Assembly: GCA_025934735.1 (NCBI GenBank)
Contig: JAICWP010000017.1
Location: forward strand, 1 to 64,000
Length of the DNA stretch: 64,000 nt
Direction: 5' to 3'
Source of the DNA: Terriglobales bacterium
Lineage (GTDB): Bacteria; Acidobacteriota; Terriglobia; Terriglobales; Acidobacteriaceae
Position numbers and translations under genes: made by a program. Below are positions 3,842 through 6,632 of the stretch, piece by piece. The notes beneath the pieces are model-generated. The model had not been told where the DNA came from. It ran no database searches and was given only the letters and a program-made list of their open reading frames with translations. Each line of letters opens with the position of its first letter. Position 1 is the first letter of the stretch.

Positions 3842-3889
3842 CCGACGAAGCGCGGCATCTGAGACCGAACTCCTGCCTCACTTGAGATG

Positions 3890-4038
3890 TGCGCTTCTCT
3901 GCCCCGTTGTTTATGCCAATACGGGAAACGGGCCATGGGACAATACAGTCGGCGATTGGGGGCAATACTTACCTCAAATTCAAACCAAGCGGCAGCACGC
4001 TTCTGGTCAGGGATTATTTCACTCCACACAAATTGTTT
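3890..4038 (+). pseudogene. Left fragment of beta-propeller gene split by the IS element
   Basis: Reading VVYANTGNGPWDNTVGDWG and then NTYLKFKPSGSTLLVRDYF runs straight into the right fragment once the element 4039-6009 and one copy of AATTGTTT are removed. The junction then reads TPHKLFNTNDQDLGSNT with no gap. One extra G in the run near 3956-3960 shifts the frame, so the gene was damaged besides the insertion. The 5' part of the gene is missing, and its left limit is approximate. The family is the PQQ-like or YVTN-type extracellular beta-propeller proteins common in Acidobacteriota. Confidence 0.7.
4031..4038 (+). repeat. Left target-site duplication AATTGTTT
   Basis: The 8-bp sequence AATTGTTT directly precedes the left inverted repeat and is repeated exactly at 6010-6017. 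Eight bp is the usual duplication length for the IS1595 family. Confidence 0.85.
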
Positions 4039-4061
4039 CATGATTATTTACTTGACAAAAG
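4039..4061 (+). repeat. Left terminal inverted repeat of IS element
   Basis: A 23-bp end beginning CATGATTATTTAC, identical in inverted orientation to 5987-6009. It contains TTGACA (4052-4057), a consensus -35 hexamer pointing inward to the passenger gene. Confidence 0.9.
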
Positions 4062-4142
4062 TCAATGACTAGAGGATTCTTGCGGCTAAGGCCGCCCGAC
4101 CTGAGATTGCAACGGCACCCCGAGCGGCCCCGGAGGTGTTCG

Positions 4143-4898
4143 GTGACAGTTGGCGTAGGATTTCTTTGCGCTGACGGTGTAATGCTTTGTGCTGATGATC
4201 AGATAACGTGGCGCGAAAGTCACAAGTATTACGAACGCAAGATTTACCCCGTCTATGACTCCAAAGCATCAGTGGTTGCGGCGACGTTCTCGGGAAACCC
4301 AGACCTGATGAAATCATTTGTGGGCAAATTTAAGGCGTCAATGGGTCATATGCCAGAACCACATACTGCTGACAGAATCCAAGAGACCATCGAGACGGTA
4401 CTAACATTTTTCGACGTCCTTAAAGACGAGCCCACACAGCTAAACTTGTTGTGCGGAATAGTAATCCCGAATAAGGAATTCAGGCTAGTCAAATCAGATG
4501 GCTATGTTGTGCGCGATGTTCCGCGATTTGATTACGTAGGAATAGGAGATTCATCGGTTCTGCGCTTCTTATCGCCGTTGCTGGTACGGCGCCGAGAGTT
4601 TTTCCTGCAGGAAGCATTTAACATCGCAGCCTATATGGTATTTCAAGCCAAGCGATACGTAGACGGATGTGGGGGCAGCACTGATGGATTGTTGATGGAG
4701 AAAACTGGATGCGGCGTAAATATTCATCTGCAACCGGGAATGGGAATAGAGGCGGCGTTTAGCAGGATAGAACACACGCTAGCAGAGGTTGCCAATGCGC
4801 TATCCGATACTGGGATGTCCGATGATAGGCTCGACAATTATGTGAAGCAATTTGCGGATACGCTTAAAGCAGACGCAACATGGTTTAGGAGAAAGTAA
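4143..4898 (+). CDS. Proteasome/HslV-like Ntn-hydrolase, IS passenger
   Basis: 251 aa. The GTG start has GGAGG 6 nt upstream, and the next codon is Thr, so removal of Met would expose Thr1, as in proteasome beta subunits and HslV. The N-terminus TVGVGFLCADGVMLCADDQ matches the beta-subunit pattern, with Asp at position 17 and Lys at 32 where catalytic Asp17 and Lys33 are expected. Later segments (FDYVGIGDSS; VDGCGGSTDG) fit the family's GSG and D-x-x-S-G regions, though the Ser is Gly here. Catalysis by self-compartmentalised proteolysis is inferred. No ATPase partner is nearby. The gene lies wholly inside the IS element, convergent with its transposase and 19 bp from it. Confidence 0.75.
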   Translation: MTVGVGFLCADGVMLCADDQITWRESHKYYERKIYPVYDSKASVVAATFSGNPDLMKSFVGKFKASMGHMPEPHTADRIQETIETVLTFFDVLKDEPTQLNLLCGIVIPNKEFRLVKSDGYVVRDVPRFDYVGIGDSSVLRFLSPLLVRRREFFLQEAFNIAAYMVFQAKRYVDGCGGSTDGLLMEKTGCGVNIHLQPGMGIEAAFSRIEHTLAEVANALSDTGMSDDRLDNYVKQFADTLKADATWFRRK

Positions 4899-4917
4899 GA
4901 AAAGTAAGACACTTAAT

Positions 4918-5808
4918 TTATGCCGTGAGCTTTTCAAATGTTAGTGTTTGGGCTGTAACCATATGCCGCAGGGTGTCCAAGAACAAATCGGAACGCTTGC
5001 GACGGTTAAACCGAAACTCCATCTCAGCGAGGTATGCTGGAAGGTGCTTTGCGCTGATCTTGTGCCACGTTCCAATGACGCCGCGCTTGAGAAGGGAGAA
5101 TGCATTCTCCACAGTATTAGTGTGAATCTCGCCGTTTACGTACTCTTTCCAGCTATGGTTGATAGTGAAGTGGTTCTCGGTGAAGCCATTCTCTGCGACC
5201 GCCGCAGGGTAGGCTTTGAAATCATCTGTAACGATGCATTCCACGTCCTTGCTGATGTTATCGGCGATGTACTTGGCCAGGGTACCGGATTTAGCGTCTT
5301 CGGCCCGGAAGAAACGAACGTCGCCGCCGCGCTCCCGAATGGCAACGACAATCTGTTTCCCTTTTCCATGTGGTCCGCGTCCCATTCCACGCGTGCGACC
5401 GCCGATATAGGTTTCGTCCATTTCGACCACTCCGCTAAGCATCACATGCTCTGCCTGTGCCATTGCAGCGCGGATACGATGACAGAGATACCAAGCAGTC
5501 TTGTAACTAACCCCCAGCGTGCGCTTCATCTGGTTTGCGGAGAACCCTTTGCGTGCTTCTACCAACAGCAGCACAGCCATGAACCACGTGTTAAGCGGCA
5601 GATGGGAGTCGTTGAAGATCGTGCCAGCGGTTACAGTGAATTGGTAATCACAATCCTTGCAGTAGAACAGTTGCTTTTCCGTCTCCAGCTCAAGCGCTGG
5701 ACATTTGCAGCGCGGGCACTCCGGACCATTGGGCCAGCGCAAACGGCATAGAATCTCGCGGCATTTGCTGTCAGTATCGAAGACGTTTTGAATGTCTAGA
5801 AGGGTCAC
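4918..5808 (-). CDS. IS1595 family transposase
   Basis: 296 aa. An N-terminal zinc ribbon (CPRCKC, then CKDCDY) is followed by a helical DNA-binding region. The RNase H-like DDE core includes DETYIGG, TDDFKAY and HTNTVENAFSLLKRG, in the order expected for the family (D, D, then N/E). The length is normal and the frame intact. It starts at GTG with GAGAGG upstream on the minus strand. A promoter with TTGACA in the right inverted repeat (see 5968-5996) should drive it. Confidence 0.93.
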   Translation of the reverse strand: MTLLDIQNVFDTDSKCREILCRLRWPNGPECPRCKCPALELETEKQLFYCKDCDYQFTVTAGTIFNDSHLPLNTWFMAVLLLVEARKGFSANQMKRTLGVSYKTAWYLCHRIRAAMAQAEHVMLSGVVEMDETYIGGRTRGMGRGPHGKGKQIVVAIRERGGDVRFFRAEDAKSGTLAKYIADNISKDVECIVTDDFKAYPAAVAENGFTENHFTINHSWKEYVNGEIHTNTVENAFSLLKRGVIGTWHKISAKHLPAYLAEMEFRFNRRKRSDLFLDTLRHMVTAQTLTFEKLTA

Positions 5809-5820
5809 AGGGCACCTCTC

Positions 5821-5946
5821 ATGGATGAGAAGCAGAAACGGGAGCAGTTGAAGCGGGTACCGACGCGGAAGCTGCTGGCATCAATTAAGAAGGACATACG
5901 GCGGGACTTGCGGGCATCCGCTACCGCTAAGCCCAAGAAGAAGTGA
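5821..5946 (+). CDS. Tiny lysine/arginine-rich ORF inside the IS element
   Basis: 41 aa beginning MDEKQKREQLKRVP and ending in ATAKPKKK. It is very basic and helical. It lies in the transposase leader on the opposite strand, and its ribosome site is weak. A basic DNA-binding accessory peptide is conceivable. Chance is equally possible. Confidence 0.25.
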   Translation: MDEKQKREQLKRVPTRKLLASIKKDIRRDLRASATAKPKKK

Positions 5947-5967
5947 GCCTTTTCCTTCATGGGTAGG

Positions 5968-5996
5968 ATGGTAGCGTGTCAGCCTGCTTTTGTCAA
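5968..5996 (-). promoter_or_regulatory. Transposase promoter with -35 in the inverted repeat
   Basis: On the minus strand, TTGACA (5991-5996) within the right inverted repeat is followed after exactly 17 bp by TACCAT (5968-5973), which matches the -10 consensus at 4 of 6 bases. It points toward the transposase start at 5808. Confidence 0.5.
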
Positions 5997-6009
5997 GTAA
6001 ATAATCATG
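5987..6009 (-). repeat. Right terminal inverted repeat of IS element
   Basis: A 23-bp perfect inverted copy of 4039-4061, immediately followed by the second AATTGTTT copy. Confidence 0.9.
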
Positions 6010-6017
6010 AATTGTTT
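6010..6017 (+). repeat. Right target-site duplication AATTGTTT
   Basis: Exact copy of 4031-4038. Together they define the element ends. Confidence 0.85.
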
Positions 6018-6632
6018 AATACGAATGATCAAGATTTGGGTTCCAACACTGCTATTCTCCTTCCGACCCAATCTGGAACATACCCCCACGAGATGGTCGG
6101 CGGCGACAAGAATGGGACTATCTATGTGATCAATCGCGACAATATGGGCAAGTTCAACAGCAGCGGCGACCAGATCATTCAAGAATTACGTGGCGCCATT
6201 GGTGTCCACATATCGACTGTATCCGACTGTAATTCCACCACATCGGATTGCAACTATAGTACCCCAGCCTATTGGAACGGGAGGATCTACTTCGCAGGAG
6301 TAAACGACAAAGTAAAGGCATTTGCTGTTTCTAGCGGTTTGCTGTCAGGTCCGACTTCTAAATCCGCCGAAACCTTTGGTTATCCTGGAGCAACGCCCAC
6401 CATATCCGCTAATGGCACAAATAATGGCATTGTTTGGACTATCGAACCTGCAAGGGCCATTCTGCATGCCTACAGTGCAACCGATCTCGGGAATGAACTG
6501 TACAACAGCAACCAGAATAGTAGCCGCGACGCACTCGGATCAAACGTGAAATTTGTCCCTCCCGCCGTTGTAAATGGCAAAGTGTATATTGGGCGATCTT
6601 CTTGCTCGCGAGCTCCATTTCCAGGTCGCTGA
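6018..6632 (+). pseudogene. Right fragment of beta-propeller gene
   Basis: About 195 residues of a propeller protein: NTNDQDLGSNTAILLP, MVGGDKNGTIYVINRDNMG, STPAYWNGRIYFAGVNDKVK, GATPTISANGTNNGIVW and FVPPAVVNGKVYIG. The last matches the usual final blade. After VYIG (about 6596) the sequence no longer fits, and the opposite strand becomes the dodecin gene, so the 3' end is also lost. The full-length family is secreted or periplasmic with PQQ-like or YVTN repeats. The gene is dead at both ends and split by the IS element. Confidence 0.75.

Follow-up and report, generated by a model that had tools for sequence, protein, structure and literature searches.

A propeptide-free, proteasome-beta-like Ntn hydrolase as the probable, exchangeable passenger of transporter insertion sequences in Acidobacteriota

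Anbu genes sit in a chromosomal operon. Like the gene product described here, Anbu lacks a propeptide, and the accessible part of the survey by Fuchs, Alva and Lupas (2021) adds 22 uncharacterised proteasome-like subfamilies which are propeptide-free and for which neither an informative genomic context nor an AAA partner was found (PMC8665760). Phage carriage is noted there for the PPH and AAH groups; the available text contains none of the terms ‘transpos’, ‘insertion sequence’ and ‘Acidobacteri’ (PMC8665760). A separate literature, likewise represented by accessible parts of the papers, describes transporter insertion sequences (ISs) of the IS1 and IS1595 families with other passengers, namely regulators, methyltransferases and resistance genes (PMC3129680, PMC8496243, PMC11891212). 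The locus analysed here has the features described for these elements, that is, an IS1595 transposase, terminal inverted repeats (TIRs), an 8-bp target-site duplication (TSD) and a passenger presumably without a role in transposition, but its passenger is a proteasome-like hydrolase which has repeatedly been replaced by members of its own family. Very probably, the open reading frame at 4143-4898 is the passenger of a transporter IS, encodes a propeptide-free, proteasome-beta-like Ntn hydrolase, and belongs to a family that has spread and been exchanged as a cassette. Neither transporter ISs nor uncharacterised proteasome homologues are thus new in themselves; a report joining proteasome-like proteins with IS passengers, or describing a slot in which members of a single enzyme family are swapped, was not found in the open-access papers searched.

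The window, a stretch of 64,000 nucleotides from a Terriglobales bacterium (contig JAICWP010000017.1), contains an IS1595-family transporter IS at 4039-6009, the features of which are collected in Table 1. The element proper comprises 1,971 bp with 23-bp ends (the raw scan gave perfect inverted repeats of 25 nt), and the hydrolase gene and the transposase gene are arranged tail-to-tail inside the TIRs. Since the TIRs and the TSD enclose the gene beside an IS1595 transposase, it is regarded as the passenger of a transporter IS, and its family affiliation suggests that it is unrelated to transposition. A duplication of 8 bp is the usual length for the IS1595 family. When the two flanks are joined with one copy of AATTGTTT, an uninterrupted host reading frame runs across the site. 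A promoter scan that included the left TIR listed no site on the + strand upstream of the passenger gene. An earlier reading made from the sequence alone had interpreted the start and the motif residues of this gene in a way that stands, while the transposon context had escaped it.

Table 1. Coordinates of the IS1595-type element, its passenger and the interrupted host gene (positions in the 64,000-nucleotide window).
Feature	Positions	Strand	Basis
Interrupted host gene, left part; reading frame continuous from this point over the joined flanks	3886..4038	+	
Target-site duplication, 8 bp, left copy AATTGTTT	4031..4038	.	
Left TIR of the IS1595-type element, matching the right TIR at 23 of 23 positions	4039..4061	+	
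GGAGG, ribosome-binding-site-like, 6 nt before the GTG	4132..4136	+	read directly
Passenger gene, predicted 251-aa proteasome-beta/Anbu-like Ntn hydrolase, start GTG-ACA (Met-Thr)	4143..4898	+	profile, fold, N-terminus comparison
Codon of the predicted nucleophile Thr1	4146..4148	+	N-terminus comparison, yeast beta2 alignment
Asp17 codon	4194..4196	+	invariant 59/59
Lys32 codon, equivalent of proteasome Lys33	4239..4241	+	invariant 59/59
IS1595-family transposase, convergent, 19 nt past the passenger stop	4918..5808	-	DDE_Tnp_IS1595 E 6.1e-34; NF033547 E 2.8e-59
Right terminal inverted repeat	5987..6009	-	
Target-site duplication, right copy AATTGTTT	6010..6017	.	
Interrupted host gene, right part; beta-propeller-like by eye	6018..6632	+	

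The passenger frame opens with the GTG at 4143-4145 and closes with a TAA stop at 4896-4898; residue numbers such as Asp17 and Lys32 count the Thr after the start Met as 1. The sequence-only reading had placed the start at this GTG, with GGAGG six nucleotides upstream and a Thr directly after the initiator, and had concluded that no propeptide is present. Direct reading confirms the motif and the codons, and the relatives agree: among 75 loci (the window, 71 fetched loci and three further ones), N-termini were readable in 69, of which 68 begin with Met-Thr and one with Met-Ser. The start was picked within six codons of the position expected from the profile, with a preference for Thr or Ser as the next residue, and the start codons of the 69 readable members are ATG in 47, GTG in 20 and TTG in two. 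Homologues starting further upstream, which would have spoken against that reading, were looked for among these readable members and none was found. The window protein thus apparently lacks a propeptide and is ready for work without trimming, as far as can be judged from the N-termini of its relatives.

A longer protein of 277 aa, beginning at the in-frame ATG at 4065 and carrying a 26-residue propeptide in need of removal, is accommodated by an open frame, but is very improbable as the true product. The GGAGG suits the GTG instead, only 26 nt of the element precede that ATG, the readable members share the short start, and in 10 of these 69 an upstream start is impossible as no earlier in-frame ATG, GTG or TTG exists.

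Conservation within the family is low overall and high at the putative active site. In an alignment of 59 members (from which L106, L117, L119, L125, rows shorter than 200 aa and rows lacking a readable N-terminus were omitted), the mean column identity is 16%, yet four columns, the start Met1, Asp17, Lys32 and a single Gly, do not vary. The residue after the Met is Thr in 58 of these full-length relatives and Ser in one, so that the catalytic triad Thr/Ser1, Asp17 and Lys32 is kept in 59 of 59, in line with the earlier remark that Asp17 and Lys32 fit such an enzyme. The same reading had noted a Gly in place of the expected Ser, and alignment with yeast beta2 bears this out: the position of proteasome Ser169 is G177 of the window protein, and the column holds Gly in 53 of 59 members and Ser in one. 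The Asp166-equivalent column is variable (Asp in 17 of 59), and the C-terminal parts vary widely between members. Only two of 17 passenger pairs tested were unsaturated in dS; these gave dN/dS values of 0.15 and 0.09, indicative of purifying selection, while the other 15 pairs were saturated.

Taken alone, the window protein reaches 13 bits with the Pfam Proteasome model, below the 22.4-bit cut-off, and its single-sequence search of the PDB returned no proteasome relative or chain. A search with it through 396 genomes of the host phylum gave matches in five: its own genome and four others, the latter at 20-32% identity. With a profile, matches were found in 62 of 398 genomes of the host's family, and with a larger profile at a stricter cut-off in 33 of 396 genomes of the host phylum, 12 of the 33 in the host's own family. 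In the 71 loci fetched around profile matches the gene is present in all 71, and the host genome itself holds a single passenger copy. Weaker matches (L169-L189, E about 1e-7 to 1e-18) belong mostly to other families of the phylum. Scans of genome_contigs and viral_contigs with the window protein alone gave no close relative, tblastn of the window protein against plasmids and phages gave no relative, plasmids queried with L002 and L021 and phages queried with L002 gave none, and a pattern scan (A3) of viral_contigs gave 72 pattern matches and no relatives.

When the 59-member profile was compared to the PDB, yeast beta2 was the first among the matches listed (E 8.5e-18), Anbu reached 3e-16 and an archaeal beta subunit 3.5e-16, and profile position 2 aligned on residue 1 of mature yeast beta2. 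HslV was not among the best 60 of 309 PDB matches, which by itself excludes nothing. In single scans of the 59 members, 22 matched Pfam Proteasome (PF00227) at E ≤1e-3, 16 an archaeal beta model and eight a phage HslV-type family, and none of the 59 matched a PADLOC defence family. An identity as HslV (ClpQ), with which the family has the predicted Thr1 chemistry in common (hhalign against the host's HslV, E 3.4e-7), was rejected: no member out of 59 matches any of the HslV equivalog models of NCBIfam at E 1e-3, a comparison in which the genuine HslV of the host reaches E 5.6e-84, and there is no adjacent hslU, hslU and hslV being located on contig C5.

The predicted structures point in the same direction. 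The sequence-only reading had made its case dependent on a four-layer Ntn sandwich, and the window protein as modelled with AlphaFold2, at moderate confidence (mean pLDDT 67.4, pTM 0.68, built from seven sequences), adopts an Ntn alpha-beta-beta-alpha fold that matches Anbu and 20S beta subunits. Its best Foldseek match is Anbu (E 3.5e-9); with VIA, Z is 21.6 for Anbu (rmsd 3.6, with 217 aligned) and about 21 for 20S beta subunits, values that are tied within 1. The model of another family member, L021, has yeast beta2 as its first VIA match (Z 23.9, rmsd 2.1 over 186). Residue 2 of the window model superposes on residue 1 of the mature beta subunit, the catalytic Thr, in many beta-subunit rows, and two C-terminal helices extend beyond the core. 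On the strength of profile and fold prediction, the product is assigned to the proteasome-beta/Anbu class of Ntn hydrolases, and the earlier interpretation as an Ntn hydrolase is supported. It resembles the 20S proteasome beta subunit (PF00227) in its predicted fold, N-terminal Thr1, Asp17 and Lys33 equivalent, but differs in having no propeptide, no alpha partner that was seen, a Gly for Ser169, C-terminal helices and a transposon as its carrier. Anbu structures (5nyj, 5nyg, 5lox), the best Foldseek matches, align as far as the first C-terminal helix at about 13% identity. By its description, the family is also like the 22 subfamilies mentioned above, being propeptide-free, of unknown function and with no AAA partner that was found (PMC8665760).

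The association with transposases recurs across the family. Among 72 loci (the window and the 71 fetched), 44 have an IS1595-, IS1- or IS630-type transposase within 1.2 kb of the relative, convergent and within 1 kb in 36 of the 72 (23 IS1595, 12 IS1 and one IS630-type) and in another arrangement within 1.2 kb in eight, while 28 have no seeded transposase. As a control, a convergent transposase within 1 kb was found beside eight of 263 other long ORFs of the same loci, and several of these eight face the passenger's own transposase from its other side. The packing is tight, 26 of the 36 convergent pairs lying within 50 nt of each other and eight of the 36 overlapping by 4 nt. TIRs with an exact 8-bp TSD surround the pair in 10 of the 44 transposase-linked loci compared to none of 440 shuffles and none of 98 slid windows. 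TIRs of at least 14/16 also arise by chance (36 of 440 shuffles, 20 of 98 slid windows), and TIRs without a TSD are therefore weak evidence. IS630 was considered as a third carrier and rejected. The locus in question (L065, 3585-5768), still counted among the 36 convergent loci and with a shortened passenger, also holds an IS1595 fragment beside the IS630-type transposase, and IS630 has therefore probably inserted into an IS1595 element.

The 28 transposase-less loci are of several kinds. Some are contig ends and two are passenger-only elements: L114 (4414-5824; TIR 16/16, TSD 8/8 CAAGAAAA) contains, besides the Ntn gene, an ORF of 132 aa whose family is unknown, has no transposase and shares its TIR with the IS1595-linked L111, while L115 has an IS1-like TIR (16/16) and a TSD of 7/8. 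Both resemble mobile insertion cassettes as these are described in the available part of PMC3129680. The remaining transposase-less loci might be stable host copies. One transposase-less member (L092, 4980-5801) is located between genes that by eye are def-like and fmt-like; it may be a relic or may have settled there.

A comparison of passengers and transposases shows that the cargo is replaced. Transposases that are 90% identical can flank passengers of 22% identity, with no DNA similarity over the passenger, which implies that the slot is swapped like a cassette. In the pair L066/L103, the DNA is 86% identical from the last passenger bases through the transposase and 89% identical at the left end, with no DNA match in the passenger; synonymous differences amount to 0.85 (saturated) in the passenger and 0.46 in the transposase, and we read this pattern, from the DNA comparison, as probable replacement of the passenger rather than fast protein evolution. 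The two elements are inserted, in two genomes, in the same short sequence ending ACTTCAGT (around 1024 in L066 and around 4894 in L103), which suggests a repeated target. Over 19 IS1595 loci, the identity of passengers does not correlate significantly with that of their transposases (r 0.11, Mantel p 0.20); over 16 IS1-type loci the two are weakly correlated (r 0.28, p 0.0095), which indicates some co-inheritance of passenger and transposase there. Exchange also crosses carrier types: the passengers of L061 (IS1) and L066 (IS1595) are 57% identical beside transposases of different families, and the passenger tree, from which rows shorter than 200 aa and L117, L119 and L125 were omitted, groups L061 with L066 and L067 (both IS1595) with high support. 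At least nine carrier-type changes are required by this tree, a count obtained by a quick method over long branches, so that only the L061/L066/L067 grouping is relied on.

In 60 genomes of the family, ten full-length transposases, counting that of the window and disregarding an incomplete match in G398 at the edge of a contig, are at least 59% identical to the window's, and eight of the ten adjoin a family passenger from the 62-genome profile search. Beside the other two (L190 and L191) lie relatives of greater divergence, which start with Met-Ser and Met-Thr, respectively, and have hhalign values to the family of E 6.9e-5 over 207 columns and 5.2e-6 over 186, compared to 0.32 for an unrelated passenger. 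In L190 (2612-3484), the gene, whose product has Ser in place of Thr next to the initiator, lies in an IS1595 element with a TSD. At 18 further IS1595 loci, the next-best rows only (transposase identity 36-51%), no family member was found at E ≤10, and several carry other genes, among them a ClpP-type protease and a PIN-domain protein. The former belongs to an IS1595 element that has TIRs and a TSD of 8 bp (L209, 3417-6096; PF00574, E 1e-17), the ORFs of which lie at 4440-5027 (+) and 5011-6063 (-), the second trypsin-like by eye; this is another compartmental protease as IS passenger. The PIN-domain protein (PIN_10, E 4.6e-13) is encoded by one ORF of an IS1595-linked pair (L200, 905-2003) that looks like a toxin-antitoxin passenger.

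As to proteolysis, ring assembly, substrate and benefit of the passenger to the element or the host, the role of the enzyme is one that we infer. Removal of the initiator Met by methionine aminopeptidase would expose Thr1, which Lys32 and Asp17, by the known chemistry of the family, would activate for attack on a peptide (or amide) bond. The enzyme is probably a homo-oligomer without a dedicated unfoldase, and its substrates are probably unfolded or specially recognised. The gene very probably spreads on IS1595- and IS1-type elements in Acidobacteriota, and family members are exchanged as cassettes in the cargo slot, which reaches from the left inverted repeat to where the transposase gene ends. 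The sequence-only reading had seen no HslU-type or other AAA partner in the window, leaving stand-alone action or the use of a host ATPase, and a search of window frames of at least 200 codons agrees: the Walker A pattern occurs in five places, two of them ABC-ATPase-like by eye and none unfoldase-like. As no unfoldase is visible in the window, and as HslU belongs to an hslVU locus elsewhere (the host's hslV and hslU lie together on C5), stand-alone action is likelier than the borrowing of a host ATPase.

Other explanations of the locus differ in how well they accommodate these observations. That the hydrolase is an ordinary host gene near which IS elements merely happened to insert would account for the 28 of 72 loci without a seeded transposase, but has next to no probability: the window gene lies inside TIRs and a TSD, and it is the joining of the flanks of the whole element that restores the host frame, while a transposase linkage above that of control ORFs speaks against it as well, as does the enclosure of gene and transposase by TIR and TSD, which was found at 10 of 44 loci and in none of 440 shuffles. 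More deserving of attention, though still improbable, is a passenger that controls the element carrying it, for instance through transposase degradation that would limit transposition. The tight tail-to-tail packing of the convergent pairs and the presence of a similar gene in both IS1595- and IS1-type elements would agree with such self-regulation. That the passenger is not co-inherited with IS1595 transposases argues against control of the element's own transposase, as do the near-identical transposases beside highly diverged passengers and the quite different passengers of other IS1595 elements.

The activity itself may also be of another kind. A proteasome-fold Ntn hydrolase that is not a protease, but makes or exchanges peptide or amide bonds like connectase or cleaves a small amide, probably as a monomer or small oligomer, is rather unlikely and is nevertheless the best placed of these alternatives. 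Some proteasome-like homologues, connectase among them, are non-proteolytic according to the accessible part of PMC8665760, and the Gly at the Ser169 position, the variable Asp166 position and the strongly differing C-terminal parts would suit such a change of function; against it, the best fold and profile matches, among those listed, are beta subunits and Anbu. The reading of the passenger as a propeptide-free, proteasome-beta-like hydrolase carried and exchanged by transporter ISs is retained. An extension of it is tentative: an acidobacterial IS1595 clade, together with some IS1-type elements, may possess a slot dedicated to this family, and swaps between highly diverged hydrolases, which leave the backbone almost unchanged and always keep the triad, may reflect conflict or adaptation, providing the element or the host with mobile, substrate-diversified threonine proteases.

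The context of these genes inside IS elements, where they are swapped as cassettes, offers a handle on the function of orphan proteasome homologues, and makes clear that a transposon can carry proteasome-type enzymes. With dozens of natural variants on similar backbones, the substrate, the assembly and the benefit of the enzyme are directly testable. The transposon-borne, swapped hydrolases point to a mobile, so far unstudied use of proteasome-like enzymes.
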